Positions 4,078 to 59,369 of a stretch of DNA of 64,000 nt are shown here, piece after piece. Under the pieces are notes generated by a model that made no database searches, had not been told where the DNA came from, and was given only the letters and a program-made list of their open reading frames with translations. The translations under genes were made by a program, and so were the position numbers. The DNA is from Loxodes magnus (taxonomy: Eukaryota; Ciliophora; Karyorelictea; Loxodida; Loxodidae). Every line of letters begins with the position of its first letter. Within the stretch, counting starts at the first letter, position 1. Location of the stretch: positions 50,553 through 114,552 of the forward strand of contig CAMPDV010001437.1 of assembly GCA_946699065.1 (NCBI GenBank), in the 5' to 3' direction.

Positions 4078-6979
4078 ATGCTACCATCTAAATGCGAAGC
4101 TTGCGAAAAAGACTTCAACTAAGAGTTTAGAAAGCCTAGAAAGTTGGATTGTGGATGTATTCTTTGTGAGAGATGTTTGAAAAGCTTCTACAAAATCTAA
4201 TAGATGTTTAATTGTAAAAAGCACAACATCATCACTTATAGACCAATTGAAAAATTAGAAATGGAGGTTTCACATCTTTAAGAGGAGTCAAAATAAAACT
4301 TACTGAATATATGTTAAGAGCATAATGAGATTCTAGCTTTTTATTGTCTGAGTGACAGTATATTAATATGTGAAAAATGCCAATGGAATTCTCATAAGAA
4401 GCATCAATGTGGTAGATAAGAGGAAATCGTTCCTATTATGTAAGTTCGAATGTAAATGACTTTGAGTGCTATGAAAGAGAGGTTGAATCAATATTCTTCT
4501 GTCTTAGGCTAATGATAAATGTAGTTGGCTTAAGATTATATGATAAATATAAAATATATAGTATAGATCTATGATAATATCAAGAGAAGTTTAGAGTAAG
4601 CATGTGAGGAGTTGGTGATAAGAGTATAGGAGAAAGGCGAATAGAGTAGGTAGGAAATAAGTTAAAATAATATTTTTGAGATGAGTAAGTAAGTAGAGAG
4701 TATCGGATAAATGTAATAGACCACTATATAGTAATGTGAGATAAAGAAGAATTAATTAGAGAGATTGGAAGTATAGCTTTAAGAAAATCAAATAAATGAA
4801 GAATAAAAATATTCTTAATATTAAGCTATTCTTATACCTTAGAATATGGAAGCTTAAGTTTTTTAAAAGATGATGAAAGGGAGTTAGTTTGGTTTAGAAT
4901 AGGAATTGCATGCTAGATAGAGAGTATAGATATAATCCTTTTAAAGAACTATATAACTTTTATGAAAGGAGAGTTAGTTGTAGGCTTAATATTATGAGAG
5001 TGTTAATAAGGAAAGTAAAGAATAAATCTAAAAGTTACTTTAAGTTATTAAAGAGTAGGATTTGGTGTTGAATGGCTTAAGAGAACAAATATCTCATAAC
5101 TAGCAAGAAATAGAGGATCAAGAGATATAACGAGAGAGAATGCTCTAGCAGTAAAATACTATCTTGAAACAAAATAACTTCTAGTTATAAGACTATAAAA
5201 ATAAGTTTAAGGAATTGAAATAATAAATAAAACATTTATCAATTCAGGGTCTTTAATATTAATTGCAAATAAAGCAGTTACTTTAGACAAAGAGAAGGAA
5301 TAGAGGAATCTCACTATATAGTAGTAGTATGAAAAATTAAATTTATAGAAAGAGAGCAGAATAAGAGAGTTGGAGAGTTAGCTTGAACTTTAAAAAAATG
5401 ATAATAATCTTTTAAGGGGTTAGTTGAATAAGTTGAGTGAGTTAAATAGGCAATAAGAGAATAGTTTGAATGCACTTACTAAGGCTAGCAATAATAATAT
5501 GTCATGGAATCAGGAGTTAAGTTAGTAAATTAAGAGTTTATAATAGGAGAGATCTAATTTTGAAAAATAGATTCAAAATTTATTGGAGGAAAGATAATAG
5601 CTTACGTGTTAGTTGAGTAAGTTTCTGAGTAAGTAAATATAAGCTTAATAAAGTTAGTAGTAAGTCTAGCAGTAAGTGTTAGTTTAAGTTGTTTAGGATA
5701 AGTAAAATAAATAAGTCTAGAGTTTTAAAATATCTAAGAGTAAGCTTCCTAATCTTAATCGACAAAGGTCATAAAATAAGAAATATAAATATCGATAATA
5801 TCACCTAATAATAAATCTGTGAATCTTACAGTTAAATAAGATACACTATCTGATAACTAAAGAACATGATAGAAAAATAAACTAATTTAAAATAATGGTC
5901 ATTGGACATCTTTAAGAATAACAATAAATTAGAATATGGTTTTTAGACGATACAATGTTTATAGATCGTGGATGGTTAATAGCTCTAAATGTATTGGAGT
6001 GAGTTAAAGTTTTAATTTAAAAATGATATATAGATGGTAAGTTTAAATTATAATAAATCTTATTATAGGAAGTACGACACATTTCAAAATTTTAATATAG
6101 GTAAGTAAAAATTGAATATTGTTAACACATAGATGGCAAGTTGACATTTAATATTGTTAACACATAGATCGTAAGTGAACATTGAATATTGCTAACTACA
6201 TAGCTAGTAAGTAAAGATTGAATATTGCTAAGACATAGAAGGTAAGTAAATATTGAATATTGTTAAAACTATAGCATGTAAATAATAATTGAATATTGTT
6301 AAGACATAGGAGGTAAGTAAAGATTGAATATTGTTAAGACATAGAATGTAATTTAACATTGAATATTGTTAAAACTATAGCATGTAAGTAAAGATTTAGT
6401 ATTGTTAAAACTATAGTATGTAAGTTAGCATTGAATATTTTTAACTACATAGATTGTAAATAAAGATTTAATATTCTAAACTATAGATTGTAAGTAAACA
6501 TTTAATATTATTAACATACAGTTGGTAGATAAATATTTAATATTCTTAACACATAGAAAGTAAGCATTTAATGTTCAAATAGAAAGTATCTTAAAATTTG
6601 ACATATGTTTAAAGTTGGTAATAGTTATTTTACATTTTACAATATTAGATAAAAGTATGACATTCATTGTTTCAATATAGAATGTAATTGGAATTTTAAT
6701 TAATTAGTATGTAAGAGGTCTTTATAGGATATTTTCTATTTATAGATCGTAATTGCTTATGGCTATTTTTAATTTTAGGAAGTAACATATTCTTAATTGT
6801 TATTATAATAGAATGTATGTTGATATGTAAAATTATAAGGGGGTAAGTTAGAATACTAATGGAAATGAAGGTTGTAAGAATAAATTGGATTACTGTAGTA
6901 ATAAAATAGTGAGTTTGAGAGTGGACTATTTATATATTTAATTAGGACTCTTTTTAATTAAAAATAATAATAATAATGA
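4078..6979 (+). CDS. TRIM-like RING/B-box/coiled-coil protein with micro-exon tail
   Basis: The start at 4078 opens with a RING-type cysteine cluster (CEACEKDF, then LDCGCILCERCLK), followed by a B-box-like cysteine/histidine pattern (ICQEH, then CEKCQWNSHKKHQC) and about 400 residues of Gln/Glu/Leu-rich coiled coil. RING plus B-box plus coiled coil is the tripartite architecture of TRIM E3 ubiquitin ligases, so E3 activity is an inference from family. TAA/TAG are Gln; in-frame TGA occurs as a plausible Trp (near residue 149). A 38-nt GT-AG intron at 5249-5286 restores the coiled-coil frame. The coil continues to about 5.77 kb, after which the frame is uncertain. The 3' end is the intron array at 5898-6898, then a short final exon reaching TGA at 6977-6979. 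RING-kelch genes elsewhere in the window carry a propeller at the comparable position; I see none here. The end and C-terminal sequence are tentative. Confidence 0.72.
5249..5286 (+). other. 38-nt GT-AG intron in the TRIM-like gene
   Basis: Removing these bases joins ...CAG G to AC AAA GAG and keeps the coiled-coil reading (SIQDKEKEQRNL). Without removal the coil shifts frame. Donor GTCTTTAATA, acceptor TTACTTTAG. Confidence 0.7.
5898..6898 (+). other. Array of 30 intron-like units separated by 3-nt spacers
   Basis: Each unit starts GT (one GC, at 6136) and ends AG. Lengths are 23-35 nt, mostly 31-33. Successive spacers are AATATG, ATC, TGA, ATG, GAA, none, ATG, ATC, CTA, AAG, CAT, GAG, AAT, CAT, TAT, ATT, ATT, TTG, AAA, AAA, TTG, ATAAAA, AAT, TAT, ATC, GAA, AAT, GGG, GTT. 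Twenty-six are 3 nt, two are 6 and one is 0. Central units (6101-6556) share a core starting GTAAGTAAAGATTGAATATT and ending near ACATAG, so they arose by tandem duplication. Outer units (5898-6100 and 6560-6898) no longer align with the core yet keep GT, AG and the 3-nt spacing. If spliced, each spacer is a micro-exon adding one residue and all skipping combinations stay in frame. A further 32-nt GT-AG candidate lies at 5831-5862, but the next interval (35 nt) does not fit the triplet rule. Confidence 0.75.
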
Positions 6980-8216
6980 TATTTATATTTATATGTTTAT
7001 ATTTATATTCACTTTTTTATTTTGGTTTTAAGATACAATGATAGAGAGAAAGGATTATTTGATTTAGCAAAGGGTGAGCTAAATGAATATAATATATAAT
7101 GAAATATTTGTATTTTAAGATTTGTTTAATAGTGTGTTTAGAAAGTGTATTTACTGTTTTTTATGTATGTTATATTCTTAATTGAAATAGCATTCATATT
7201 AAAATATATATTTAAGTTTTAATTAAATAAAATTTATAATTATTTTTGATATGTTTATCATTTATAAGTGTAAATAACTTAAAATTATGTATCTTTGATG
7301 ACTTTCTCTAACTATATTTTAACTATTTTAGTAACTAAACATATTTATTTATTTCAAGTACAGATATATCAGTCTAATTATCAATTTCCTTATTTAATAT
7401 CTCTATATTTATATTTTCAACAATGGATATTACCAAAACTATATAACCAAAGATGTTATGAGAGAGTGTGGATTCCTAATAAGAATGTGTAGATAGTTGG
7501 CTTGTTTAAGGTTGCTAATAAAAGTAATTATTTTGGTATTTAAAGTGTTTAAAGTTATTAAATGCTTGCTTTATAAAATAACACTTTTATTTATTAAAGT
7601 TAGTTTCTTTCTTATTTGAAAAAGTTAAAACTAAAATTACTTTTTTTTAGCTTTTGAATTTTTTATTTTTTTGTAAATAAATTTAATTAATAAAAATTGA
7701 AAAAAGTTATTTTTTCTCAGCATTTCACACTAAAGGAGATTTTATGAACGGATTTTTTAAAAAATTTTAAATTTATTGTTGATGTTGAAATGACTCTTAT
7801 AATGATAAAATCTTACGAAATATAAAATTTATTTTAGATAAAAAATATTAGAGAAATTAGTAATTTTTAGGGGTATTTTTAAAATTTCTGTTTTTCTTTA
7901 GAATTTTACTACAAGAATCTTTAAGGATGGACAAAGAGAAGGTTTTAAGATGTGTATTTAATATTTTAGATATATTTTAATAATGTAAAAAAATAGCATT
8001 TTTCATAATATTTTGGTGATATCTCTCTTTAGAATTAAGAATGTTTGTAATATAGACTATTTTAAACAATACTTATTAATTTTAAATAAGAATTTATTAA
8101 TTTTGTTATTTTTATTTAATAAAGGTAAGGATGATAAATCTAATAAAAAGGTAATTAGAGAAAAATCTATTTTTCTTTATAAAATAAATTCATTATAAAT
8201 GATTATAATTAACAAG
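6980..8216. other. A+T-rich spacer, no gene supported
   Basis: Very A+T-rich sequence between the TRIM-like gene and the G+C-rich Gag-like gene. Short open stretches near 7.3 and 8.0 kb have low-complexity Ile/Tyr/Leu composition and no motif. Confidence 0.5.
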
Positions 8217-9204
8217 ATGTCAGGTCTGAGAAAAGGATTCTATCCACCTCCAACAGGTAATAAAAAAGGAGAAGAGGGCAAGGAAGAAAAGGCCCAATAT
8301 CAACAACAGACTATTCCCCAGACCCAGAAGAAACATCTACAGACTTCTCCAGGGACGCCACTGCAGGAAGAGAAACCTAAAAAGAAAACTTAACTCCAAC
8401 AATCCTCAGTGAGCGATTTCTCTCTGTCCGGATCTGGCTATGATAACGAGCTAGCCATCGAATAAGCAGAGCTCAGACAGGAGGTACAGGACCTCAAGCA
8501 AACTCTAACAAAAATCATGCAAACTGGCACCAAGTTGAGTACTTGGGATTAAGCCCGACTTGTTAAGCTTGAGTAGGAGGTTTTCGATATGCGAGTGGAG
8601 CTCAATAAAGCTCACGACACTATTTTGCTTCAGAGTCGCACTATCGAGTAATTGAGTGGTCAGAAGACCCATTAAGTGTAAGCGTAGGCTTATCAGCCGG
8701 ATTCTGCTCTCCAGTAAAATTAATTCATGGAACTGGAGTAAGAACACGCCTCCTAGACCTCTACCTCCCAAGATCCAATATAGTCAGCCCAAATCTTGTT
8801 ACTGCTGTGGCAGTAGCTGACATCTCTTTAGAAATTGCAGGAAATTTTAAGACTAACAAAGAGAATATTGGAGGACATTAGAGCTGAAGCGGATTAAAGC
8901 AGAATAAGCCTAAAAACAAAAAGAAAGATAATTGTTTTTTAATAAGTAGAGGCTATACTGCGATCCGAACGGGAGGATTTATAGGAAATTGACGCCAGAA
9001 GAAATGAACTAGAAAGACCCAAGGGCGCACATTTATATTCAAGATTTTCTTAATGACTGATCTCAGAGTGACATACAGCCTAGAAGAGTGTCACGGCGAA
9101 AGGAAAACCGTCAAAAAAAACCCGTCCAGAAGTAACACCGACGTTAACCGGGTTTTTAGCATAACTGTTAACTCTCATTTAATCTTAATCTTAATTATAA
9201 ATGA
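8217..9204 (+). CDS. Gag/ORF1-like CCHC protein, G+C-rich fossil
   Basis: A retroelement-type nucleic-acid-binding protein: a Pro/Gln/Lys-rich N-terminus (MSGLRKGFYPPPTGNKKG), a charged, heptad-like middle, and a CCHC zinc knuckle (CYCCGSSWHLFRNC, about 8797-8838) followed by a basic tail. The knuckle's Trp is a TGA codon; the region ends at TGA 9202-9204. Base composition is far richer in G+C than anything adjacent, and Gln is spelled CAA/CAG as well as TAA/TAG, which suggests recent arrival or a different mutational history. No reverse transcriptase, protease or terminal repeats are seen around it, so it may be a retroelement gag/ORF1 or a domesticated relative. It does not look wholly intact. 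Confidence 0.6.
9113..9157 (+). terminator. Hairpin at the 3' end of the G+C-rich element
   Basis: AAAAACCCG (ending 9124) can pair with CGGGTTTTT (9149-9157) around a ~24-nt loop, inside the C-terminal end of the Gag-like gene. It may be an RNA 3'-end structure of the element; chance is possible. Confidence 0.3.
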
Positions 9205-29840: not shown

Positions 29841-29880
29841 ATTAAAAGACTGCTAAAAAGATGTTATTATATATATAAAA

Positions 29881-30730
29881 ATGGCTTCTAAGAAATAACA
29901 GAACTTTGAGCAAAACATTTAAACAGGAAAATTCTCTAAAAAATAAAAAAGTGAAATAATTACAATGAGTGAAAGTGAGAAATATGATTGATATGACGAA
30001 CATTAACCACTTGGAAATCCAGAAATTAAAAAAACTTCCGACACAAACTCAAATAGAAATATTATCAAAATCATTAAAAGAGTTTATGTTTAAAAATAGA
30101 TACCTCACTGATAAAGTAGAAAAATTAGAAAAACTAATAACTTCTTTACTTGAGAAACAATATTAATAATCATAAGAAATAGAATAAAAACTGGAACAAA
30201 AAATTCTTTAAATTTAATAATAAATTCAGGTAATTCCATTTTCGATTTAACAGAATTAATCAGATCCTATGGAAATAGAAAATGAAGCCTCAAATTAAAA
30301 TAAGCAGCAAACGTTTATTTAAAATAAGTAGTAAATTTAAATTAAGTAAGTGTTACAGGAATAATAGTTTAAAAGAAGAATAAAATGCTACGTGTGCAAT
30401 AAATAACACCAATGAAAATACTGCTACTAACTAAGCGAAATTTAAAGAATAAATAAGATATTTTTAGAAAACTATTTAGGATATATCCAACATAAAGCGG
30501 AAATATTTATAGAAAAAAATTCTTTAATTCAAATCTTAATCCTTGGATAAATAATTAGGAATGCTAAGTGCAAGACCAAAACTATTCCGAATATTAAAGG
30601 ATGGTGCGCTAATGAAGTGCTACACCGCCTAACTAAGCCTAGTAGGAATTCAAGACAAACTAATAGAGACAAGCTGATAGAATAGGTCAGATGGCTGACT
30701 ACTAAGGCTTTAACAAAGCTTTTTAACTTT
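29881..30730 (+). mobile_element. CCHC Gag/ORF1-like repeat, copy 1
   Basis: An ~850-bp repeat present three times (29881, 36078-36928 inverted, 56640). It encodes a protein starting MASKKQQNFEQNIQTGKFSK, with a predicted coil (DKVEKLEKLITSLLEKQY), a Gln-rich part and a zinc-knuckle-like CYVCNKQHQWKYC. It is followed by a ~100-residue tail ending near KALTKLF. The knuckle Trp is TGA. The 3' end carries a TTTAAC/TAAA-rich stretch, as in retroposed copies. It is a fossil of a retroelement gag/ORF1 or a short non-autonomous relative; no RT is attached. Copies are very similar, so recent. This copy is not wholly intact. Confidence 0.6.
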
Positions 30731-30950: not shown

Positions 30951-31335
30951 AAATAAATAAATAAATTGGATTATAGAGCGCGTAGCACTCTCGTTGGTGC
31001 GCAGTTCTTTCAATTAATTTTATTCAATGTCGAAAATTTTTTTTATGTCTCTCTATCCTTGTTTCTCTTCCTGCAGTACGTCCCTGTAATTTTTCCTTCC
31101 AAAGTATAGGATGCAATATGCGATTATGGGTACATTTCCCCAACCTATGATGAAGAAAGTTTCCTCCTGGCATTCAGAGTTCTCCAGCTTGTCACATCTT
31201 CTTTCCCTTGTCTCTGGTTTCTCTTCCTCCGATTTATCCTCTGTCTGCGCTGATTTTTTTGTTGCCTTGCTGGGCCTCCAAGCAACATCCGAAGGAAAGG
31301 GCTTTCCACCCTATTTAAATTATAATAATATATAT
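30951..31335 (-). mobile_element. G+C-rich ~385-bp insertion with small membrane-protein sequence
   Basis: Copy B (57700-57720) reads ...TTTTTGATAGTATAAAACG; here the same flanks are split by ~385 bp, with ATA (containing TA) on both sides. The insert's G+C is far above its surroundings. On the minus strand one frame reads KPFPSDVAWRPSKATKKSAQ, then TEDKSEEEKPETRERRCDK, a hydrophobic segment (ETFFIIGWGNVPIIAYCILY), then RDVLQEEKQGQRDIKKIFDI. That is an acidic/basic domain, one membrane span and a charged tail. There is no start codon in frame, so it is 5'-truncated. On the coding strand the insert ends in TTTA repeats, like a non-LTR tail. Part (CTGCAGGAAGAGAAAC) matches the G+C-rich Gag-like gene at 8.36 kb. 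Confidence 0.7.
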
Positions 31336-32960
31336 AGTATAAAACGTGCAAAAAATAAAAATCAATTTTTTTCGTCTTGGAGATTATTTTTGCTACTAAT
31401 TTTCTATTGATTTTATTACTAAAATCTCTTAATTAATTTTTTCTTCCTTCAATTTTAAAATATTTGATTTAATTAGTTTTTATGATTACTAAAATTTTGT
31501 ATTCCTTTTCTTCTAAAATATGTTTTTATTCTAAAATAATTTTTTTATTTTAATATAAATTTTAGCACTTTTATTATACCTTTTACTTGATCCATTAATG
31601 GGAAACATATTAGAAAATGAATTTAATAATTAAATTAAACTTTTTATTATTTAATAAACTATTTATGTTTCTTTTTAATTACAATTTATTTAAAAAATCC
31701 CACTTTATTATTATTTATTTTTAAAAAATTTAGCTCTAATTCCTTTTATTTTATTCTCAAATATAATATTTTATTTTTCCTAAAAGAGTTATAAAACATA
31801 AAACGCAAGCGAATCTTTTCTTTTGACTTTTTTTAGTTGATTTTAAAATTTTATATTTTTAATCTTAAAAATATAAAAAAATAAAAAAATCTATCTAAAT
31901 TAATAAACAAACTTTAACTCACTCTGCTTTTAATTAAAAAAATAAGAATATTTATAAGATAAATTTTACTCTAAATTTAGATATTTCCTAAAATAAAATA
32001 AGATTTAATTATAATACTTAAAGTTTTCTTTTTATTTTTATTAAAAGAATTCTCACTAGAATATATTTTATTTTCTGAATAATAATTAATAACTTCATTT
32101 TTTATATATTTTAAAATTATAAATCTATGTCTGTCCCCAAATCTTATATAATATATAACGCAGTGCAAAGCTAATATTTCTAATTAATTAAAAAGTTTGC
32201 TAATTTTAACTTTTTATTATTTAAAATTTAATAAATTTAAATTATTTTAAAATATTTAAAATTTTAATATTTTATTACCTTTAAAAATTCCAATATCAAA
32301 TTTAAAATAAGTAAATCTTTATAGCTTTAGAAAAATTGCTAAATAAAGCTAAAAATACTAATTCATCTTTTTAAATTAAAAAAATCTTTAAACAATAAAA
32401 TTAAAAAAATTAAATATAGATAAAATCCATTTTTTTTAATTCTATCTTATAAAATAATTCAATATAATTCAAATATTTTATGTTTATTTTTTAATTCAAA
32501 AATTATTAAAACTTTATATAGTGAAAAATTTTAGTTAAAAAGGATTTAAAATATGTTAATTTATAAATTAATATTTAGATTAAATTTATTGCTTTTATCT
32601 TATTACCTTTTTAAATTAATTAATTAATGGATTAATATTTTTATTTCAACCACTTCAAATTTTTAAATTAATGTAATTTTTCAATAAATGTTTTTAAGAA
32701 AAATATTTACAATTCTTATTGTTTTACATTGTAGACTTAGCCATGCTTAAGTAAAAGTATATTGTCATATATAAATTTTTAATATAAAATACTTAAGGAT
32801 AAATAAATCTCAAACATAAATATACTCTTAAACCATACGTAAATATCTTAATTTTTAATTGCTTTATATCTTCTAAAGCTTTTATACGTAATTAAATACA
32901 TAGTATGCTTTTCCTAACAGTAATAATAAATTTCTTAAATTGTAAAATTAAAAGTCTTAA
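31336..32960. other. A+T-rich non-coding segment, conserved between copies
   Basis: Almost only A and T, with poly-A/T runs and TTAATTAA palindromes. It is nearly identical to 57712-59350. A 63-codon minus-strand open stretch (31977-32168) is identical in both copies, but that only reflects recent duplication. No gene is supported. Confidence 0.5.
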
Positions 32961-32969
32961 TAGTTGTTA

Positions 32970-33760
32970 CTTTCTCTCAACTTATTATTTTCCACTTTTT
33001 CACAGTATTATCATATCCTCCTGATACTATTTATTTGTTGTCCTTACCCAATGCTATAGAATTTAGATAATTTTTTAGCCTTAAAGAGTTTATATGCATT
33101 CACCTATATTAAAGTTCCATATCTACATGATCCAGGAATCGTAACACTTGAAGTTACTAAACTGAATACTTGATACAGTATTTGAATAGCCTTGAAGAGT
33201 TCGAAGTAGCTGACTAGTTGTTAATTCCCATATATTGATTGTCTTATCAATACTTCCCGATATGATCAGTTCTGGTCACTTGAAATCGCTACAGAAAACA
33301 CAGAATCTGTATCTCCCCACAAAGAACCCTTACATTCGCTAGTCCCATTTATTGATCGATTTATCATAACTTCCCAATAAAATTCAATTCTAATCACTTG
33401 ATATCGCTAAAGAATTTACACCATTCGTGTGTCCTTACAAAGAACTTTTTAATTAACCAGTTGCTAAGTTCCATATCATTATCGTACCTTCAGAACTTCC
33501 CGATACGATTCCTTTTCTGGTCTCTTGAAATCGCTACAGATAATAAAGGATTCGTATGTCCCTATAAAGTAATCTTACACTAGCCAGTTGTTAAGACCCA
33601 TATCTTTATCGTATTATCTCTATTTCCCGATACGATTAAATTTTAGTTACTTGATATCACTACAGATAATAAAGTACCGTATATTCTTGGGATATTTTAT
33701 CTAAATATTAAAGAATTACCTTTATTTTTGTCGTAGTTGATTATATTTTCCAGTTTTAAA
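32970..33760 (-). pseudogene. WD40-repeat gene, duplication 2 copy A
   Basis: Minus strand. Repeats readable in order are NLIVSGNRDNTIKIWVLTTG, GIVSGSSEGTIMIWNLATGQ, then a repeat with ILLGSYDKSINKWD and one with LIISGSIDKTINIWELTTSQ. A 19-nt GT-AG intron at 33701-33719 matches the intron position of the other WD40 family. The reading changes frame between repeats at least twice (after ISRDQK and around the fourth repeat), so this copy looks damaged unless further short introns explain it. Its partner at 59.37-60.13 kb shares the same changes, which therefore predate the duplication. The gene is divergent to the Notch-repeat gene. Confidence 0.6.
33701..33719 (-). other. 19-nt intron in WD40 gene
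   Basis: GTAATTCTTTAATATTTAG on the minus strand. It has strong similarity to the 20-nt intron of the WD40 gene at 22.8/46.6 kb, supporting a shared origin and real splicing. Confidence 0.65.
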
Positions 33761-34283
33761 AAAACAAAATAGGTAGAATTTCATATTTAAGAAAAAAAGG
33801 AATTTTAGCTAGAGAATAATTTGCTTATTTTAAAATATTTCTTAAAAAGATACTCTTAATAAATTATATTTCTTTGTTTTGCATTTTTTATTTTATAACT
33901 TACTTTATAATAGTTTAATTATATTATCTCATATAAAGAAAATAATTAGATTTTAAACTTTTGCTATAAGCAAAACTGTTTTAGCATTTATTTAAAGAGA
34001 TCAACGAACTATCCATTAGAAAATATATTTAAGTTAAAATTAAATTAAATAATGAAATATTCTATACAATAATCAATGTAAAATTTAGGATTTAGCTTAT
34101 AAACTAAATTTATAATTAACATATTTTTATGCTTTAATTCCTTTTTTTATTTTACTATATAAAAAAGAAACATTTCTTCCAAAAATCTCTTCTCAATAGG
34201 ATCTATACCAATCAAGATACCACTACCAAAATTTACTTTAAGAACTCAAATTATGTAATAGGAGAATTTTTAACTTTTAAGAA

Positions 34284-36077
34284 ATGTATAAGGGCTTGAA
34301 GGGAAAATCGCATACTGATGTCAAGCACTTAAGAATAAAAGATTTAAAATAAGTACTCAGCAAATATTAGAATCGAATGATTAGAAACAAAATTCAGCCA
34401 CTTTGCAGTGCTAACCGAAAGCATATTCCTTTAAAATTAGTCAATGGATGTAGACCTAAAGATCAACCAAAAAAAATTTATTTATAGAAGTGAAAAAAAT
34501 ACTGATCATATTAAGCATAAGCACTACGTTTAAAAGAATAGCTAAGAGGAGTGTAGTATACATTATATCCAAATAATCTCTGTCAAAAACTTCTGAATCT
34601 CCTGCTGTTAAAACAAAAGAAGAAATTAATATGTTTTTAAATGAAACTTTCTTCAATCTTAGCTGTAACATATAGAAGGCCAATTACAATTTAAGTATAA
34701 ACCATTATAGAATGGAAATATCTTATTTTGCAAAAGGAATCTTTAATCAGTCTCATATAATACCTTGCTTCATTAAAGGCTCTAAAGTCTACAATCCCAC
34801 CTATACGTTCAAAAGAAGAATAATCCAGTTAAATGTTTCTATTTTAATGTAACTAATACAAAAGAATAAATAACTTAGCATTAGTTACTTATATAGAATA
34901 ATGATGCTTGCTTCAAGCAATGATAGGAGACTCAAAGTTCTAATTTCAATGCCTTTATTGCTAAAATCATTTCCATTATTGAGACTGTTGCTTTACTCTT
35001 ATTATTTGCACACCTTATCTTATAGATAACGTTTCATGTAACTAAGAGTATTTAAATCCAATGTGCATTTCCTTAGAATGTTGCAATTATTAAGAAGCTT
35101 GTTTATAAGCTTTAGGTGGATAATGTAGCGCTGAAAAAATAGGTAGCAAAATATGCAATTAAGAATGCTTAGTTCATTAATGTGGTTGAGATGCAATGGA
35201 CAACTTAACTTCATAACTTTCAAATAAGAATTATAACTTTGGATCTTTATTATAAAACTCACCTTTCTGTTCTCCAGGCTGCTTGGATTAAGACTTTAAT
35301 AATACACAAAAAGATAAGTAGGCGACTAAAAATGTGATTTAGCTTGTATGACTGAAAGTTGTTAGTGAGATTAAGAAGATTATTTTTAAAAGAAGCTTCA
35401 TTTTATGATTATAATACACTAAAAATTTACAGTTTCCCAGTAACAACCTGCTTCATAACTCTTATGAATAGATTAATTATTGAAGATGATAAGAACCTCG
35501 ACCTTTAATGTTATATTCCTATGTGCTCAAGTTATGAAAGTTCTAACCAGATTTGACTGACAGAAGTGATAAGGAATGACTTTATTCTAACTGAGAATAA
35601 CCTTAATAATAAGATGAAAATAATCAATAGAACAGTGGAAATAATCCGTAGAATATGAGTTAAAATTAGGCAAATGTATTAGATTAAAGGTACTATTAAG
35701 ATTAATGACACGATTGAAATGACTGCTAACTATCTTCTCATCAAAATTTTACATATTGCAATTTAAATCCACAATATAATTGTAACTGGAATATGATAGG
35801 TAACAATGTAATCCAAATAGTTTACTACGAAAATTCTAAAAGATATTAGAATAGTTTATGCAAGTACGATGGTAATGACTGCTAAGTTTGCATAGATACC
35901 AATAATACATGTCTTCAATCTTAAGGGAACAACATTAGCGATTTAAGTTGCTATAATAAATAATGTAACTGAGATGGCTGAGGTCGTTAAAAGTGTTTAT
36001 AGAAAGGCTGCAAAATCAAACAAATTGGGGATTTAATTTTTCAAGAATAATGCTATTACGAAGAATGCTTTTTTGAT
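34284..36077 (+). CDS. Lin-12/Notch-repeat (LNR) cysteine-rich protein, copy A, cut by a repeat
   Basis: A candidate start at 34284 (MYKGLKGKSHTDVKHLRIKD) opens a region that becomes cysteine-rich from about 35.2 kb: NSPFCSPGCLDQD, PQCYIPMCSSNES, DQRCNQDQWHDWNDCQ, LCKYDGNDCQVC, CYNKQCNWDGWGR. CNWDG-type motifs are Lin-12/Notch repeats (Ca2+-binding extracellular modules), and their Trp codons here are TGA. A secreted or surface role is inferred. The frame changes at least three times, which may be short introns or lesions. The sequence is interrupted after YYEECFFDK by the inverted CCHC repeat at 36078. The homologous gene at 60.66-63.18 kb continues past this point. Confidence 0.6.
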
Positions 36078-36928
36078 AAAAGTTAAAAAGCTTTGTTAAA
36101 GCCTTAGTAGTCAGCCATCTGGCCTATTCTATCAGCTTGTCTCCATTAGTTTGTCTTGAATTCATACTAAGCTTAGTTAGGCGGCGTAGCACTTCATTAG
36201 CGCACCATCCTTTAATATTCTGAATAGCTTTCATCTTGCATGTAGTCCTAATTATTTATCCAAGGATTAAGATTTGAGTTAAAGAATTTTTTTCTATAAA
36301 TTTTTCCGCTTTATGTTGGATATATCCTAAATAGTTTTCTAAAAATATCTTATTTATTCTTTCTTTAAATTTCGCTTAGTTAGTAGCAGTATTTTCATTG
36401 GTGTTATTTATTGCACACGTAGCATTTTATTCTTCTTTTAAACTATTATTCCTGTAACACTTATTTAATTTAAATTTACTACTTATTTTAAATAAACGTT
36501 TACTGTTTATTTTAATTTGAAGCTTCATTTTCTATTTCCATAGGATCTGATTAATTCTGTTAAAACGAAAATGGAATTACCTGAATTTATTATTATATTT
36601 AAAGAATTCTTTGTTCCAGTTTGTTTTCTATTTCTTATGATGATTAATATTGTTTCTAAAGTAAAGACGTTATTAGTTTTTCTAATTTTTCTACTTTATC
36701 AGTGAGGTATCTATTTTTAAACATAAACTCTTTTAATGACTTAGATAATATTTCTATTTGAGTTTGTGTCGGAAGTTTTTTTAATTCTGGATTTCCAAGT
36801 GGTTAATGTTCGTCATATCAATCATATTTCTCACTTTCACTCATTGTAATTATTTCGCTTTTTTATTTTTTAGAGAATTTTCCTGTTTAAATGTTTTGTT
36901 CAAAGTTCTGTTATTTCTTAGAAGCCAA
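36078..36928 (-). mobile_element. CCHC Gag/ORF1-like repeat, inverted copy
   Basis: This is the reverse complement of 29881-30730, ~850 bp, lying in the Notch-repeat gene. With copy 1 it forms large inverted repeats around a 5.3-kb interior, 7.05 kb overall. The zinc-knuckle and coil coding parts are present. It appears complete apart from its first few bases. Right of it the sequence is unrelated to copy B, so the repeat marks a rearrangement junction. Confidence 0.65.
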
Positions 36929-37028
36929 TTTATCTAAATAAAAAGGTCTAGAAAAAGAATTAAAAAATAATCCAAAAGGTGATAAAAAGTGCTAAATAAA
37001 GAGAAAAGTATTGAAACATATTAAAAAG

Positions 37029-37574
<546 letters not shown>

Positions 37575-38106
37575 ACAATCCTAGATTATTAACTTTAAAG
37601 AAAAAATGTAAATAATTAAAATAATCTAAATAAGTTTAAAAAATTAAATAAAATTTACTAATAAAAATATATTTTTTATCAAAACAAATATTCAACGTGA
37701 AATCTATACAAATTTTTAAAGGTTCTTCATTTTTGGACAAAACAAATATCGATTAAAAAAATCTTTAAAATATAATAGACAAAAATTTAATTTGACTCCT
37801 GCATAATCTATAAAAATTTATCTTGATATAAAAAATAAGAAAAATCATTCTTAAAACTTATGAAAGAACAGTAATAAAATTTTTTGAAATAATTAAAAAA
37901 TCTTTAGTTAAAGCTTAAGATTTATCGAGTAATAAGTTTAATTGCAATACAAATAAATAATAAAATTCCTTTAAAATTTGACATAATATAAAGAGAAATT
38001 TGTAATTTAGAAGAAAAAGCAACTTGGAAATATAGAAATAGATCATATTAAATATGAAGTTAGTTTTTGAAAAGAATGCTGCTTATAAGTTTAAAGATGA
38101 AGATGA
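37575..38106. other. A+T-rich spacer
   Basis: Low-complexity A-rich sequence between the ARF gene and the satellite; nothing else seen. Confidence 0.5.
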
Positions 38107-39240
38107 TAAAAAGCTTAAGAACTAAAAGACTGTAAGAAGAACTTTAAGATTGCAAACCGTTAACATTGCGAGCTCGGATCTCTTTCTAAAGTTATATCTG
38201 AATATCGAAAGCGTGGAAATCACAAAATGACAGTAAGATGAACTTTAAGTTAGGAATTCACTTTCCTTTAGAGCTCTGTTCAAATCCTGCCATTGAACTG
38301 AGAATCGAGAGTGCTTAAATATTAAAATTCTGAAAGAGAAACTTAAGTTAAGAATCCGTTAATCGTTAAATGCTCTGATCAATTTCTCCAAAAGAGTTTG
38401 CTGATATTAAGCTAAGAACTATAAAACTGTAAGAGAAACTTTAAATTTGGAGGCCGTTAATCCTTGAAAGGTTCTGATTAAGTTCTCCAAGATTGAACTG
38501 AGAATCGAAAATGCTAAGTACTAAAAGACTGTAAGAAGAACTTTAAGTTCGGAATCCGTTATCCTTGAGAGCTCTAATCAAAATCTCAAAAAAAGTCTGT
38601 GTAGAGTTAAAGCTTATGAACTTTAAGACTTTAAGAAGAACTTAAAGTTTGCAATCCGTTATCCTTTAGAGCTCGATTATTTTCTAAAGCATAGTCTGAT
38701 TGACGAGAGTGCTTAAATATTATAAATCTGTAAGAGAAACTTAAGTTATGAATTCGTTAATCGTATATATCTCTAATCAAGTTTTCAAAAAATTCTGGAT
38801 AGACGATAAGCTTAAGAACTTCAATACGTTATGAAGAATTTAAGTTTAGAATCCATTTTCTAGATTGCTCTGTTTTTTTTCTCAAAATACGTCTGAGTTA
38901 CGAATAAGCGTAAGTACTTAAAGAACGAAAGTACAACTTATTTTATAGACTCCGTTTCATTTGAGATCTTTGGTTTAGTTCTAAATTTTTTTTTCGGGAT
39001 ATAGTTGAAAAACTTAAAAATTGAAAGAAGAACTTTGACTATAAACTCCATTCTGTTTCATATTTATATCCAGTTCTTAAATTATTAGTAATAAATTTTA
39101 AAAGCGGAAGATTTTAAGGTTGAACATTTAGTTAAAGAAATTTCTACTTGATAGTTTTGATCTAGTTCTCGAAAGGAGTCTCATTAGGGATAAAGCTGAA
39201 GAACCTAGAAGATTTTAAGTAGGACTTTGAATTAAAAATT
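38107..39240 (+). repeat. ~100-bp tandem satellite, short array
   Basis: About 11 units of the same family as 12.3-15.8 kb, aligning to the right part of that array (from about 14.4 kb) with some units missing. It begins abruptly at AAAAGCTTAAGAACTAAAAG. Confidence 0.85.
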
Positions 39241-39836
39241 CGTTCCGCCCTTTCTAAGGATTTTCACACTCTCATTTTTTTACCATATTCTTACTTACGA
39301 TTTCTGAGAAATGCAAAATAATTTCATTTTTTTGCGTTTCTGTTGGAATGAGTCTTTGGTTGTAGTTCTTTTCTTCTAAAAATTTTAAATCGTTAAATTT
39401 TTATCTTTTAGCAGTTCCGAGCTTCGTATTATCGTCTATTTTTTCTCATTCTTTTCTTCCTACATTCTAAAGATTTTCAAAGAGCTTTAGTCTTAGTAAA
39501 TGTTCTAACTTAGCTACTTTTTTTGATATTAAGATTAGTTAAAGATTGTGTCCCTTTTTTAGTGCATTGCTCGTAGTAGTTTTTAAAGATTTTAGGATAG
39601 AGATGTTTTTGTTATTTATATAATAAAAAATGTGATTAAGTTGTAAAGCTGGTTGGTTTTTTAAATTTAGCAAAATGTATTGGTGCGGATTGTAGATAGG
39701 TACTTGATATAAGAGGTTAATATTGTAGTATGTATGTAATGATAGATATTTGAATTTATAATGGTTAATTATAATTTTTGATGGTAACTGTTATAAATTA
39801 CCTTTATAAGCTTTTTTAATCTAAATAATAATAAAA

Positions 39837-41288
39837 ATGTAAGCGTTACCAAAATGCTTAATCTGCTAAGAAGATTACAACTTAACTAATGCTCTTCCAA
39901 CTGTCTTACCTTGTGGACATATTTACTGTGGTTTGTGTTTGAATACTCAGTTCTGATTATAAGGCATAATGTAATGTCCTATTTGTTAAAAAGGATTCCA
40001 TTTTAGATTTGAAGACTTACCTTAAGAAAGTGATTTAATAAGAATGATATTTTAAAACTAATAATACATATAAAAGATTTAAGATGCTAGATAGAAATTA
40101 AAAGAGATAAGGAAGTAAATTATGCAAAAATCTAAAACCATTACAACCAAATTATCTAACATTACTAATACTCTCATTATACCATATACTAATATCATCC
40201 AATACACTACCATTAACTACAACTAATAACACTAAAATATTATACAATCATCCTAATTCCCTATTTACTCATTTCTAAAACCAACTCAAATCCAAACTAT
40301 AACAGTCTAACTATATTCCACTATATAACCACCTTTACTACTAAACCCTAAATTAACTTCAAATTATATCACACAAATAAGAAACAAACTATAATACAAT
40401 ACTAAGTAACAACAGTTAAACACTAAACAGACTAATTAACATAAACTAACCTAGTAACAACAGTTTATTCAATCTAACTATATTCACTATTTTAGTTCCT
40501 CTATTTAAAAATTAAGTTTATTTAACATTTAAACTGAGTAATTACGATAAGTCTAAGTTTAAATTATAATTCCAGTATTTAGTAAAAGTATAGAATATTA
40601 AAATAAGTTATATTTAATTGGAGGATAAAACTAAAACTAAAATTAAAAGAAAGGAATAAAAGAGACTTGATAGTTCGATTTCGAAGGTAATAATACAAAA
40701 CTTAGTGATCTAAATGAGGGAAGATGAGCTTTTGGATTAGCAGTAGCTTAAAATTATCTTTATGTGGTTGGAGGAATTACTAATAATTATCAAAAGTTAT
40801 AATTAGTAGAAAAGTTAAAGATAGGAAACTAAAGTAAATGATAAAAATGCTCTTAATTTCCATTCATAATAGCAGGCTAAACTTTAGTAGTAGATAAAGA
40901 CGAATAAAACATTTATTCAATTGGAGGTGCAAATTAGAGAGGATAAACTTTAAAAGATATATGAAAGTATAACATATAGAATGATAGATGGAGTAAGTAA
41001 AATTTGAATCTTCCTGAAGCTGTTGCTTTTCCTATAGTTTCTTTAGAGCCTTTTGTCGTAATCGGAGGTATAAAATTTTTTTCTACAGATCAATATTCAA
41101 GAAGAATATATAAAAGAAACAAATAATAATGGCAATAAAGTTAAATTTTTAAAGATGTTCTATCTTTAACGGAGATGAAAATAAGAGGTGTCTATGGATA
41201 TGTTTTTGCTATAGAATAGAAAAGAGTTTCAATAATGAGGATTGATTTAGAAAAGTTGAGTTATAGAAGTGTTAAAGGGGATAACTGA
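39837..41288 (+). CDS. RING finger plus kelch-repeat protein, copy B
   Basis: Nearly identical to 16435-17882, with the same RING cysteines, G-free linker, 17-nt intron (40607-40623) and kelch blocks. Differences are enriched in the kelch part: EGR-W-AFGLAVAQN instead of EGRYGFGIAAAQN (TGA again at Trp), PFVVIGGIKFFS instead of PFVIFGG-W-KNL, and a 6-nt in-frame gain after the intron. The TGA codons at the kelch Trp sites of copy A are kept. Both copies staying in frame suggests both were translated until recently. End placed at TGA 41286-41288. Confidence 0.8.
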
Positions 41289-42630
41289 GATAATAATAAT
41301 ATTGATATGATTAATATTATTGATAATAAATATAGTTTTATATGTAAGTAGTTTAAATATCTATAGTAAATATGTTACTACTTATTAATATGGTTAATCT
41401 ATACTTATTAATGTTGTATTTTTATAAGTTTTTTTGTATGTTTAAGTGTATATATGATGTTGATATGGTAATGTAGTTATAGCTATATAGTTGACAATAA
41501 AGATTATTTTCCTTACTAGCTCTTTTTAAAGCTGAAATAAATAAAGAATCAAATTTTATCTAAACATCTTTAAAAATCTATTATTCAAATATTATCATTA
41601 TTCAGATACTAACATACAGCTTATAACATACCAAAACATATTCAACAATGTCAAAAAACTATCTTTAATATATCCTTATATTTAAATTATACAAGTACAG
41701 ATTACTATTTATCTAATCAAAACTATAATCAAATTATCATTAACCTATATCTAAATACAAGTCATTATTACTATCATACACTCTAAAATACATACTTTAA
41801 TACCAACTACTAAACTTTCCTATACACATATATCAAATCAGGCCATTATAACCCCTATACTTTTGATAAAAGTTCAATCATAATAAATAAATTATAATAA
41901 ATAACAACGTACACTTGTGTGATAAGCCTTACTTATTTGAGGGTTCTCTCGATTGGTACCAGAATATAACTAGGGTGCTGAAGTCCAATTCTCAGAGTAA
42001 TCCTGCTACTATGTCATTTATCTGGTTAGGAATTGGAAAAGCCTGAAGACATGACTGAGACAAATTATATCTTTAAGTAGAAAAATTAAATTAGATTGTG
42101 AAATTTGGCACAATAATTGGATTTTATTCTATTCCCTTTTAACTTTAGCCTTCGGAAAGAAATACAAAAATTTTGAAAGTAAAGGTAATAAATTTTTATT
42201 TAAAAAACTGAGACAAAAGGACCAAAGAGATCAGACGAAGCCAGAAATATTTCTAGACTATTTTAAAATCCAAATTTGGTTTTTTATTAATTGTGGTGAA
42301 CCTAATAAATGTAGAATCACGTTTATTTATTTATCTTTAGAAACGTTCTCATCAGATTATTAAATCCTAGCCTCCTTATACTTAGCAGATAAAACTTCCC
42401 TTTTAAATTAAGTCTTCTAGGTAGCATTCAAATTAATACTTACTTCTGTGATGTTCGATTTTAACTTAGAAAAAGATGCAAGAGAGTAGAATTTACATAA
42501 TTAAAATTTTAAGTTATCTAAAAGTAGTGTAATATATTACTTAGTAGCACATAAAGGTTAATTGAACCAACTAAATATTATGAATAATCCTTGATTTAAA
42601 TTAAAAGTTCTGAAGAGCCCTACTAGAGAG
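41289..42630. other. Spacer with G/T-to-C/A switch
   Basis: Equivalent of 17883-19120 and nearly identical, including the C/A-rich G-poor stretch, but interrupted by the extra ~90 bp at 41847-41938. No gene assigned. Confidence 0.5.
41847..41938. mobile_element. ~90-bp segment present only in duplication copy B
   Basis: Copy A reads GGCCATTGAGGGTTCTC. Copy B has about 90 extra bases between CCATT and TGAGGG, bounded by ATT on both sides, starting ATAACCCCTATACTTTTGAT and ending TAAGCCTTACTTATT. It could be a small inserted element, an internal eliminated sequence, or a deletion in copy A between ATT repeats. Confidence 0.6.
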
Positions 42631-43430
42631 TAAAGATCTCCTAATGGCAGTGTATCAGGAAAAATATTGAGACCTTTGGCATTACGAAAAGGCTCTGATG
42701 TAGTAAAATGTATTCCTGATATTGATATTTTTGTAAGAAGAGAAGTGATCACTGGAGATAATCCTTTTGAATTCATAAATTATGGAGTAAAAGCGTTATA
42801 GATTTGTCCTTTTGTTTAAAATTAGACTTTTCAACAGTGCTCTATGATCTTAAAACAAGTCTGAAAGCTCTTTTGAATTAAAAGCATCTTGTTGAGAAGT
42901 AATGATATGGTAAGTTCCCACAGCAAATTAGGATAAAATTAAAATCTTAAATCTTATGAAGAAAATAAAGAATTTCTCAGGATAATTGATTTGGCAGGTT
43001 CTTAATTAAAGTATATTTATCCTATATAAAATGTATATAGGATAATTTAAAGTTCCAATAATTAACAGTGATAAATGCTTTAAAAGTGGAAGATGCTACC
43101 TTATTATCTAGATTCTGGTTATCAGTCAATAAAATTAAAAATTGTAAAGTTTTTCTGAAATATTCATTAAGACAACACAAAATGTTCTCATACTAAGCTG
43201 TATGTTCAGTGAAAGAAACAATATAGACGGTTCCAAAAACATTATTATATAAGGTGTATAGAGGAGCAGAAATTAATCATGGTCATCCGAAAGAACGTTA
43301 ATAAATTTATCCTCTTTTGAACAAAATGAAGGTTTACAGTTAACTTTTAGTATTTAGATTTGAAATAAGAATGGTTACTTGGTATTTAAGATAAACAATT
43401 TTATAACATAAGCTTCTTAATTTGATCATA
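42630..43430 (+). CDS. ADP-ribosyltransferase-like protein, copy B (tentative)
   Basis: Counterpart of 19120-19960. It keeps the NCKVFLKYSLRQHKMFSYQA helix and TVPKTLLYKVYRGAEIN. It has diverged more than its partner downstream of the Tyr-Arg-Gly and looks less intact. ART assignment rests on the motif only. Confidence 0.35.
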
Positions 43431-44044
43431 AGTTATTGAAGAATTAAATATATTAATTAAAAGTAGGTAAATTATTGTTTAAGAAGTATAAAAATAAAGA
43501 TTGGCTTTTAAAATTGAATTTAATAAAATCTAAATAAATTAGGCGAAAAATAAAATTTAACAAGTTTGGATTCAAAAATTAGATAGATATAACTTATATT
43601 AATTATTGAAATGATAGATAATTAATTAAATATACAGCTTTTATATATTATCGTATAAAGAAAATAATCAGTTTAGTTTTATTGAATGTAATAATTCTTA
43701 AGCTTTCTAAATTAAGCTTATATCTTATAAAAGTTAAAGATATCTTAAAATTTTATTGATATAATTGCCTGACTTATTCTATTTATTCCTTAGACTAATT
43801 ACACTTCAATATTTAAACTTTTATTTTAGTATTATTTAACTTCTAAACTTTATTTCTGTTTCAGTATTAAGTTCCACTTATGAAGTAAATTTATCTAGCA
43901 TAGTTTTTACCTTTAAATAAAAATCTGCTGACTTATTTTAATATCATGCTTTTAAACTCTCCCTTGCTTCTGTTTGGCTGTAGTTGAATCTTACAAAAAA
44001 GAATTTTCTCCACTAAATTGACAAAAAAGTCTATCTTTGATATT
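43431..44044. other. A+T-rich spacer
   Basis: Equivalent to 19961-20559 with more substitutions than neighbouring parts; nothing supported beyond the possible minus-strand exon noted there. Confidence 0.35.
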
Positions 44045-44719
44045 GAAAGGCATAACTGTAAATCTAAATTTAAAGACTCCTTAGTCTAAATTTTAAGCAT
44101 TTGCTTACATTATTTGGTTACCCTTAAACAGCTTAAGCAAACTCATGGATTTAAGAAGCAAAAATAATTTTCCTAATTTTGTTTGTTGAAAGATATTAAG
44201 TTTCAGCTAAGAGTCAATAAAGCCAAAATTTTATACGAGAAGCTAAATAAAAATTTGAGAAAGAGCTTAGAAACTAGCTATCTAAAACGAATGCAAACGA
44301 TGGTTTTCATATTTATAAGGACAATAAGCTATTTTGGGTAAGAGGAGATAAAGATGTTTTGCCATAAAGATAATAAATAGGATGATAAGGTATTAGAGAT
44401 ACTAAAGGGATAAATATTATCTTTTACTGGTGCTTTCTGAAACTAATAAATAGTAGATATAATCTAGAATAAATATAAATGGTGTGATATAGATTCTAGT
44501 TTAATAGGAGTTAAATGTGGTAGATAATGTTAATCTGTTATATGAATAGAAAGTTGGTTAGTAAGACATATTAATGAATGATATGTTTTACATGTTTATA
44601 AATTAGGCTTAGATACTATTGCTCCCTATCTACATGAAAAGGAATAGATAAGGTTAGCTCTGTATTATATGGAATTGTATTTTGGAATAACTTTGATGAG
44701 GATTGTAGGTGTGGACTGA
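44045..44719 (+). CDS. Myb-like two-repeat DNA-binding protein, copy B
   Basis: Almost identical to 20560-21234, including KCGRQC and LGLDTIAPYLHEKEQIRL, ending at the same TGA. The downstream 1.3 kb (44.75-46.0 kb) is practically unchanged between copies, while sequence upstream of about 44.3 kb differs more. Gene conversion may therefore have acted here. Confidence 0.5.
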
Positions 44720-45124
44720 TTTGATATAGTATTAATAAGTTGATTCTTTGAACTTAAGATTAAATTAGAAGTTATCTTGCTTAATTAACCTCTCTTAAGT
44801 ATTTAAGATTAATTAAAATTAATCTAAACTTCTTAATTAGTCTCAACCAATACACTATAAGGATAAAACCACTTTACAACACCATTCATTATCAATTCAA
44901 ATCACTACACCAATATCATACCATACAGTTTAACTGCCTCCAATTAATTACTCTAAAACTATCTTACATCATAACCAAATCTATAGCATACACACACCAA
45001 CTAACTCAAAACTAATTTTTAAGAACTAGCATACAACTAAGACTAACCATTAGAAAGCTTAGTCTCTTCTTAAACAACAGAAACTAATTAATTAGCCAAC
45101 TAATATTAGGCTACAGCTCATTAC
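44720..45124. other. Spacer with C/A-rich tract
   Basis: Identical in kind to 21235-21640; no gene seen. Confidence 0.5.
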
Positions 45125-45985
45125 TGATAGGTCTCTTAGTAGCTTAGTAGAAATAAAACTAAGAGATTAAGAGTTAAGATAGCTTTATTTAATCAAGTAA
45201 TGCTAATACATTTTCTGAGAACACTTCTTTAGATGTTAATAGACCTTAAAGAAAAGCTCTTAGCAAATCATAACAGATAGATGCTTCAAACAAGATTGAA
45301 TAAGTAGAGTAAAGAGAATCGTAGTTTAATACTTTGAATAGTACTGCAATCTGTTCTTATGATATTCAATCTGTAAAATAAAGTTAGAAGTTGATGAGGA
45401 GGAAAAAGCCTCTTTAGTGAAATAATAAGGTAATAAAAAAGTTAGTTAAACCAGATTTAAATTTAAGCAGAAAAAGGATAGATAAATTATTTATCTTATT
45501 AGGCTAAAAATGATAAGTTTGCTTAAAGACACTTAAAAGAAGCTAAATTTATAGCAGCTACAACATTAATTTAATAGCTTTTAATCTTTATTTTTAAGAA
45601 GTTCTAATTAAAGCAATATAAAAGAGAATAAAACAATAAGCTTAATAAAAGAAATAAGTCTTTATCTATAACAGATAGGTAATACTAGTATAAAGCTTTA
45701 TTAAACAAACTTAACTTTCAAAACATAAGAAACAGAAAACATTCAAGTACTTTACATTTTTAAGAAGTAGGAATAAAACCTAGTTATCAACTATAATTTA
45801 CCAAAAATTTAAGACTTACAAAATAATAGTAGTTTCTCAGTACAAAATTAGATATAATCACAAAAAACCAACTAATTGAAAGATGTAAAATCAACTCTAA
45901 CAAATTAGCAGAGATTGAAGGCTTAACAAAGGCATATCAATGAAGACCCGAATAAATAAAGGCAAATTAAATTTCATTTAAGTAA
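45125..45985 (+). CDS. Unrecognised Gln/Ser/Lys-rich protein, copy B
   Basis: Same protein as 21640-22500 with hardly any base change, including both TGA codons read as Trp. It converges with the WD40 gene. No domain recognised. Confidence 0.5.
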
Positions 45986-46019
45986 GGTAACGGATTCTAT
46001 ATTAAACAATGTCTAAATA

Positions 46020-46720
46020 AGTTTTGCTATAAGATAATAGATTTAATAAGAAAATTAAAAACAGCTAGAGCAGTTGAGAAAGACCCTATCTTTATCGTAC
46101 AATCGGAACTTCCTGAGACAATTGATTTCATGTCACTTGTTAAAGCTACAGAATTAACGTAACTCGAATGACCCGTCAAAGTTCTTTGGAGGGTACCAGT
46201 CTGAAAATCCCACATCTTTATAGTGGCATCGGAACTTCCAGAGACAATTGATTTCATGTCGCTTGTTAAAGCTACAGAGATAACTGAATCCGAATAACCT
46301 TCCAGAGTTCACGTACAACTTCCAGACTGGAAATCCCACATCTTTATAGTTGCATCGGAACTTCCAGAGACAATTCATTTCATATCACTTGTTAAAGCTA
46401 CAGAGATAATTGAATCCGAATGACCTGTCAAAGTTCTTTGGAGGGTACCAGTCTGGAAATCCCACATCTTTATCGTACAATCGGAACTTCCTGAGACAAT
46501 TGATTTCATGTCACTTGTTAAAGCTACAAAATTAACGTAACTCGAATGAGCCGTCAAAGTTAAGTCTAAAATATTAAAGAACTACCTTGAGATTAGTCGT
46601 AGGAAATGTTGTTTAGCAATTTTTAGAAGCAGAGGTTGAATTTGGTATTTAAATAGAAGAAGGGGTATTGTTGGGACTGATTTGTTGTTGTTAATATTTT
46701 TGGTAAAAAAAGAGTTTTAG
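46020..46720 (-). CDS. WD40-repeat protein, copy B (four repeats)
   Basis: Minus strand. Four repeats of 42 aa (126 bp) carry the signatures TAHSSYVNFVALTSDMKS, IVSGSSDCTIKMWDFQTGT and LQRTLTGHSDSIISVALTSD. They are so alike at the DNA level that recent repeat amplification or conversion is certain. A 5' exon (about 46.6-46.7 kb) is joined by a 20-nt intron at 46566-46585. Two TGA codons fall within repeats (DMK-W-IVSG and SCT-W-TLEG). WD40 propellers normally have seven blades, so four repeats imply a partial propeller or dimer. The C-terminus (TALAVFNFLIKSIIL) is not WD-like. Confidence 0.72.
46566..46585 (-). other. 20-nt intron in WD40 gene copy B
   Basis: GTAGTTCTTTAATATTTTAG on the minus strand. 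Splicing yields ...SYDQSQDLTLTAHSSYVN in frame with the WD repeats. Confidence 0.7.
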
Positions 46721-55960: not shown

Positions 55961-56639
55961 GGAGGACAAGAATAAACTGCACTGCTTGTAGTAAAATTAG
56001 TTACTTATTGAATTATGATCAAATTGCTTTTTAATTATAATTTATTTATTTTTTAACTAAAATACTTAAGTTCAAAGACTAATGATAAGGTTTTTTACTT
56101 CTCTTTAAAAAATTAAAGTTGTCTTTGTTGCTTTTTTATGCTATTGAGACTTATAATGAGCACTTGCAATTTTCTTATTTTATAGATTTAATATGAAAAG
56201 AGAAATTTGGAGTTAGATTATAAGTTACGAAGAATTTTGAGAGAAGCGAGGCTAAAATATACTGGCTTATATTCCTATATTTCTAGTAGAATAATTAGAC
56301 ATCTTTAAGATTATCAATGCCGTTCATTCTAGCCTTTTAAATTAATTTTCTTTCTTTGAAATCTTCAAAACTAAATTTTAAAAACCAAAGACTTTTCTAT
56401 TTTTGCTAGAAATTAAGATTTTATCTTTTTCTTATATTGTAGCCCTTTGAAAGAGATTACTTTACTATAGCATACTCTTAAATTTTTATATTTCTAAAAA
56501 GATGTTCAAGTGAATAATTTTGCTTTTTACCTTAGAACTATTAATAGATATTTCCCTTTTTTAATTCATAACTTGCTTCATAATCAAGCCTCAAATTAGA
56601 GATGATATTTTTTAATTTATTAAGATATACATATATAAA
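55961..56639. other. A+T-rich spacer
   Basis: No gene supported. It ends at the first base of the CCHC repeat; the last bases (ATATATAAA) resemble those before copy 1 at 29.88 kb, which could be a shared target preference. Confidence 0.5.
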
Positions 56640-57490: not shown

Positions 57491-57704
57491 TTAACTTTTT
57501 ATAAATAAATAAATTTTGCTATATAATTTGTGTATAAAACATAAGGAATTTTTTTATATATTTTCAATCAAAAATTTAATCAATTAAGAATTCAAAAAAA
57601 TTATATAAAAAAACCTTTTTCTTCATTTTTAAAAGAATTTAAAGAATTTCTTTTTTTATGATTATTTGTAAATTAAATCATTTTTATTTTATTTTTTCTA
57701 AAAA

Positions 57705-59360: not shown

Positions 59361-59369
59361 ATTATTTTC

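Follow-up and report, generated by a model that had tools for sequence, protein, structure and literature searches.

Schistosome micro-exon genes carry exons of 6-36 bp between longer introns, encode secreted proteins and undergo exon skipping. The array that we describe here, found in a 64-kb stretch of DNA from the ciliate Loxodes magnus (the window), would share with them many tiny symmetrical exons in series. Several other systems are comparable, as far as the excerpted parts of the papers cited here describe them. In the Cryptococcus gene CNN00420, introns were added by multiplication of a repeat that includes a complete intron, as we propose for the array; the repeats there are ~107 nt long and two introns were gained, whereas the array would have ~26 units and 3-nt exons, with sequence lost and splice sites retained (PMC2395259). 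Tetrahymena exon arrays likewise consist of tandem exon-intron units in a ciliate, with uniform exon length and one phase, but their exons encode leucine-rich repeats, whereas the exons predicted here are single codons and more variable than the introns (PMC6564038). Human UBC resembles the array in having splice sites within a tandem repeat; unlike in the array, coding ubiquitin monomers are removed stochastically there, through tandem dual-specific AGGT sites (PMC10809524). A 3-bp exon has been reported in Drosophila homothorax (PMC7392893) and a 1-nt exon in Arabidopsis (PMC4674806), one per gene, whereas the array would hold 25 such exons in series. In the open literature, a body without preprints and with few subscription papers, no mini-intron array with single-codon exons appeared among the matches listed. 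We file the array as an intron-bearing tandem repeat at the limit of exon size.

Judging from the DNA, from which we infer the transcription, splicing, translation, order of events and function of the array, a B-box/coiled-coil gene probably carries at its 3' end ~26 and no more than 30 ultra-short spliceosomal introns, with exons of a single codon between them. Splicing of the array in some form, with variants in which it is untranslated or arose by insertion counted in, is likely. Translation is less sure than splicing.

Table 1. Observed and predicted features of the array, its host gene and other genes of the window.
Feature	Position	Strand	Details
First exon of host gene	4078-5248	+	Cys/His-rich N-terminus, B-box zinc finger, coiled coil; frame f0 coding score
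Predicted ordinary 26-nt GT-AG intron of host gene	5249-5274	+	Placed by the frame change from f0 to f2
Predicted 28-nt intron GTAAGC...AAAG (model B)	5740-5767	+	Removal leaves the frame open to 6036
Four doubtful 5' units	5898-6033	+	Donors GTC, GTT, GTG, GTT
Core array	6037-6898	+	26 units of 23-35 nt that resemble mini-introns, with 25 spacers
13 similar central units	6101-6556	+	Period ~35; TRF and alignment
GC-AG unit of central block	6136-6167	+	
Eleven 3' units	6560-6898	+	No detectable similarity to central units; GTA...AG and spacing retained
Predicted last exon	6899-6979	+	26 codons, then TGA stop; model B translation
Kelch gene, predicted 31-nt intron	17149-17179	+	Duplicate copy at 40551-40582, 32 nt
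WD40 gene, predicted 20-nt intron	46566-46585	-	Frames by eye

The first-pass annotation of this DNA had described thirty consecutive mini-introns at 5898-6898, of 23-35 nt each, one of them GC-AG, with spacers of 3 nt or another multiple of three. With spacers limited to such multiples, we recover the same 30 units, with the same lengths and the single GC-AG unit; of the 29 spacers, 26 measure 3 nt, two 6 nt and one 0 nt. The multiple-of-three rule is partly built into that set because of the choice of units. When spacers of 0-15 nt are permitted at equal cost, the chain search returns 31 units, and its 30 spacers measure 3 nt in 25 cases, 6 nt in two, 0 nt in one and 10 nt in two. Neither 10-nt spacer falls within 6037-6898: the first is found amid the weak 5' units and the second follows unit 30; within this core all spacers are 3, 6 or 0 nt long (23, one and one, respectively) despite the range permitted. 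Core donors are GTA in 25 of the 26 units and GCA in the remaining one, and acceptors are TAG (22), AAG (3) or CAG (1). The longest unbroken run of the array is 15 units. The lengths of the 30 units span 11 different values, and a YTNAY branch-site-like motif is present in 20 of them, several times far upstream, and missing from 10. The four units at the 5' end fare worse than the 26 of the core, which stand: none has a GTA donor, and taken alone they form a chain of 3 that is matched by shuffles at P=0.0062 and by 10 of 1250 overlapping windows of the same size elsewhere. This segment may be exon instead.

We compared chains of units at 3-nt spacing with dinucleotide-shuffled sequence, which gives the only unbiased tests because GT and AG serve to define a unit in the first place. 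In the diverged 3' part (6583-6910), eight units form one chain, and the maximum in 20,000 shuffles is 5; the 5' part (5890-6100) holds a chain of 5 against a shuffle maximum of 4. Outside the array, the longest chains in the 64-kb window reach 3 to 5 units for spacings of 0-9 on either strand, and 621 overlapping 328-nt windows on the plus strand contain chains of at most four. The array is a real and statistically strong sequence feature. G+C along the window is 0.19-0.31, and chance or an assembly artefact in such AT-rich DNA might be invoked, as GT and AG are common and tandem repeats are prone to misassembly. This explanation is extremely improbable: 0 of 20,000 shuffles reached the 3' chain, and dissimilar 3' units would be an unlikely product of repeat misassembly. 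A stable RNA fold was also sought in the array and none was found (z +1.3 and +0.7), and we rejected a structured RNA on these values. Rfam (at gathering score) and tRNA scans of the window returned zero matches.

A repeat that decays outside any splicing context may resemble such an array, and we used repeats from prokaryote and viral collections for comparison. The controls comprise at least 244 loci and 1.9 million bases, preselected for three such units in a row: at least 118 stretches from genome_contigs and at least 120 from viral_contigs, both sets found with a looser pattern, and six loci that match a generic GTAAG pattern. Those six were read as chance or repeats. The array-specific pattern has no match in viral_contigs, and one of the six that at first appeared array-like (L003) proved to be a bacterial-code reading frame of 984 aa whose repeats are coding. 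At least 22 control chains have seven or more units, and the longest has 17, compared with 15 in the unbroken run of the array; when GTA...TAG is demanded, the longest run is 10 in the window and 8 among the first 124 control loci. Core identity is 0.47-0.58 in 8 of 14 measured control chains and 0.51-0.54 in the flanks of the array. Length and core divergence alone prove nothing, because control repeats match both. What sets the array apart is its spacer diversity. As the earlier annotation held, the spacer triplets vary freely, with 14 distinct triplets among the 23 core spacers of 3 nt, whereas control chains of seven or more units, among the 244 preselected loci, have one to five each and never exceed five, which also argues against chance. 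Spacer pair identity is 0.44-1.0 in 14 control chains and 0.17-0.35 in the three parts of the array; two control chains (0.44 and 0.45) come near the array values, and eight further chains have one to three distinct spacers.

These values bear on the reading of the array as a decaying minisatellite without splicing, in which TAG-N3-GTAAG would be retained through some other role, such as that of a bipartite DNA- or RNA-binding site. The central units are a clear tandem repeat, the retained motif is contiguous (TAGNNNGTAAG), and repeats of spliceosome-free genomes do contain long 3-nt-spaced GT...AG chains with dissimilar cores. We nevertheless judge this reading unlikely, since spacers are far more alike in the control chains, the retained positions fit donor and acceptor consensus, and the array runs on one strand, behind a gene. 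Among the 13 central units, GT or AG is altered only once, by a GC that is the tolerated variant of GT, within a GCAAGT donor that is otherwise perfect.

The central units are tandemly repeated, as first proposed, and TRF and alignment support 13 similar copies. In this block, spacer columns have a mean of 6.3 non-consensus letters out of 13, compared with 1.5 in unit columns, and three randomly drawn columns match the spacer total in 0.25% of draws (P=0.0025). Spacer and unit columns would diverge alike in an ordinary minisatellite and do not do so here. Diversity is 0.645 for spacers, which are nearly saturated, and 0.194 per unit column. The flanking units have lost their similarity to the central ones, another point of the annotation that our alignments bear out: when the 17 non-central units are compared with the central consensus, none outscores shuffled sequence at p<0.05, the lowest p being 0.098. 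GT, AG and triplet spacing are retained where unit interiors are random, as judged by shuffles and alignment. The block itself is uneven. Unit columns are overdispersed (variance/mean 2.9), the distances of the two unit halves are uncorrelated (r -0.16), at odds with what simple stepwise duplication would predict, and the correlation of a spacer with its preceding unit is weak (r 0.23, P 0.038). Gene conversion that reshuffles the block, constrained unit positions or a burst of copies might explain these departures.

A burst is central to the idea that the introns were gained by insertion, so that the triplets would be ancestral codons and the central introns recent copies of one element. Near-saturated spacers and uncorrelated unit halves, as in a star-like burst, are in its favour. 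We find it distinctly improbable all the same, because a fixed 3-nt offset demands a special target rule, spacers correlate with the preceding unit as if the two were co-copied, and the unit columns are overdispersed. Excised germline elements are TA-bounded, and their excision at the array would leave 7-nt pieces and no multiple-of-three rule; we rejected this possibility. In its passage on such elements, PMC11441545 reports that the classical kind were not detected in Loxodes.

The array lies on the sense strand of its host gene, 3' of the coding part and 5' of AT-rich DNA (GC 0.18 at 6899-7700 vs 0.28 at 4078-5897). The host had been annotated as a RING/B-box protein. Pfam identifies the B-box (PF00643, E 1.5e-7, over its cut-off) but reports none of the RING families even with E values of up to 1 admitted, so that only the B-box half of that assignment stands and the protein falls short of a TRIM-like RING/B-box architecture. 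A long coiled coil, read by eye, follows the B-box. Searched with the C-terminal region of the modelled host protein, Pfam and PDB gave nothing above cut-off (the lowest Pfam E values, 0.0045 and 0.008, are both under curated scores), and no relative of the host protein was confirmed in viral_contigs. Removing the predicted 26-nt intron joins host-gene frames f0 and f2. Beyond ~5757 the coding score is weak, and two models describe how the gene may reach the array: in model A the frame extends as far as 5897 and 5898 is the first base of the array, as in the first-pass annotation, and in model B a 28-nt intron is removed, the frame continues to 6036 with a single TGA taken as Trp, and the array begins at 6037. 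The 28-nt intron is tentative because of the weak coding score. Both models enter the array in codon phase 0, in which the spacer codons of model B read EMILKHENHYIILKKLIKNYIENGV.

The genetic code determines how these frames are read. The first exon of the host gene contains 56 TAA or TAG and two TGA codons within 390 codons; because of the former, TAA and TAG must be sense codons. Both encode Gln in Loxodes. In-frame TGA codons of the window fall at sites where kelch and RING proteins usually have Trp. We translated the TGA of the kelch gene as nine different residues and compared Pfam bits. Trp gave the best bits in Kelch_1, Kelch_3, Kelch_4 and Kelch_6, Tyr scored slightly above Trp in Kelch_2 and PF24996, Gln was best in PF24981, and Trp tied sixth of the nine in PF24681. 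Both TGA codons of a WD40 gene face Ser and Arg of sister repeats, and an ARF-like GTPase gene (36990-37580; PF00025, E 6.5e-60) has one in-frame TGA. Since the WD40 sites, the ARF-like TGA and the mixed Pfam ranks count against it, reading TGA as Trp inside genes of the window is likely rather than proven. TAA and TAG as Gln, together with TGA probably as Trp, probably point to a karyorelict-like ciliate. The section of PMC11441545 on the karyorelict code of Loxodes describes UGA as the only stop, which can also mean Trp.

Because the codons of the spacers fit phase 0 no better than chance (P=0.44, with another phase higher), the single argument for translation of the array is the multiple-of-three rule, which does suggest it. 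The array might instead be spliced within a 3' untranslated or other non-coding part, the gene ending at an upstream in-frame TGA and the 3-nt spacers being kept by ancestry. TGA codons are present upstream in all three frames according to the translations, and spacer codon usage is not coding-like, both of which favour such an arrangement; yet TGA is probably Trp inside genes here, the two core spacers that are not 3 nt long (0 and 6) still keep to multiples of three though other values were permitted, and unit lengths drift freely where spacers do not. An untranslated array is, on balance, improbable. We also regard as doubtful a hypervariable tail, in which 26-30 single codons would each lie between their own introns, the introns being homogenised or under constraint and the variation of the codons either free or driven, with length changing by intron-codon units and variants arising by retention or skipping. 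The first-pass annotation had envisaged free skipping of any subset of micro-exons, and we would not follow it there: a single dropped micro-exon would need an intron of ~67 nt, twice the longest unit. Nor is its proposed TGA switch retained, as the TGA spacer (6000-6002) lies within the doubtful units, is absent in model B and probably means Trp. Adaptive variation through the array is unlikely.

In our preferred reading, that of translated single-codon exons between spliceosomal introns, an intron and its neighbouring codon would have multiplied in tandem at least twice, leaving old units at both flanks, without the original sequence but with splice sites, and a younger block in the centre. 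Each intron would probably be recognised across itself (intron definition) and the introns removed one by one, because simultaneous binding of a donor and an acceptor that are 3 nt apart is hardly possible. The joined codons would then add ~25 residues in phase 0 before a short last exon. GT, AG and spacers in multiples of three would be kept by purifying selection because failure of an intron would usually shift the frame. Selection for splicing had been proposed earlier; in its purifying form it best explains the retained sites, and splicing itself we infer from sequence features. The tail may be near-neutral, with selection acting on splice sites and not residues, because the spacer codons carry no coding signal. 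Thus, the array would probably be a tolerated, near-neutral outcome of intron duplication and not a device for diversity. If confirmed at the RNA level, it would take splicing far beyond known gene structures. If spliced, its ~26 introns would be removed 3 bases apart, a test of intron definition and of the limits of splice-site proximity, and intron number would have grown by tandem duplication and then been locked by purifying selection, a testable form of neutral complexity. Since such structures would escape gene finders and aligners, more of them may exist.

Predicted introns in genes of the window number four and measure 20-32 nt. According to the intron statistics given in PMC11441545, Loxodes magnus introns have a mean length of 19.3 and a mode of 17, and 93% are up to 25 bp; the array units are similar in length to the predicted introns of the window but longer than these published ones. 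The two kelch copies differ by a 1-nt indel that lies inside the predicted intron if the acceptor is TTAG, with the kelch frame restored (by eye), and the lengths of the other indels in this coding region add up locally to multiples of three. At 13526-15430 and ~38100-38850 lie tandem repeats of 97-101 nt; GTAAGA...TTTAAG occurs in many of them, and their lengths break any single frame. We tried the repeats at 13526-15430 as exon-intron units and found no rule.

Other features of the window were also recorded. A gag-like frame at 8200-8870 has a CCHC knuckle pattern by eye, and Pfam reported nothing in the frame given. A LINE-like reverse transcriptase fragment lies at 49219-50187 (PF00078, E 2.5e-5, under the curated cut-off); a search of viral_contigs confirmed no relative of it. 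Switch II of the ARF-like GTPase reads WDANKQQ, and WDxGGQ is usually conserved in this region of ARF-like GTPases. The segment 16740-17080 of the RING-kelch gene is strongly strand-biased, with 7 G and 80 C in 341 nt, and its second copy is nearly identical. Large segmental duplications pair 14991-22790 with 38404-46278 and 31334-36079 with 57711-62456, at 93-99% identity. An element of ~860 bp occurs three times (29867-30730, 36079-36941 and 56632-57492), the middle copy being inverted relative to the other two.
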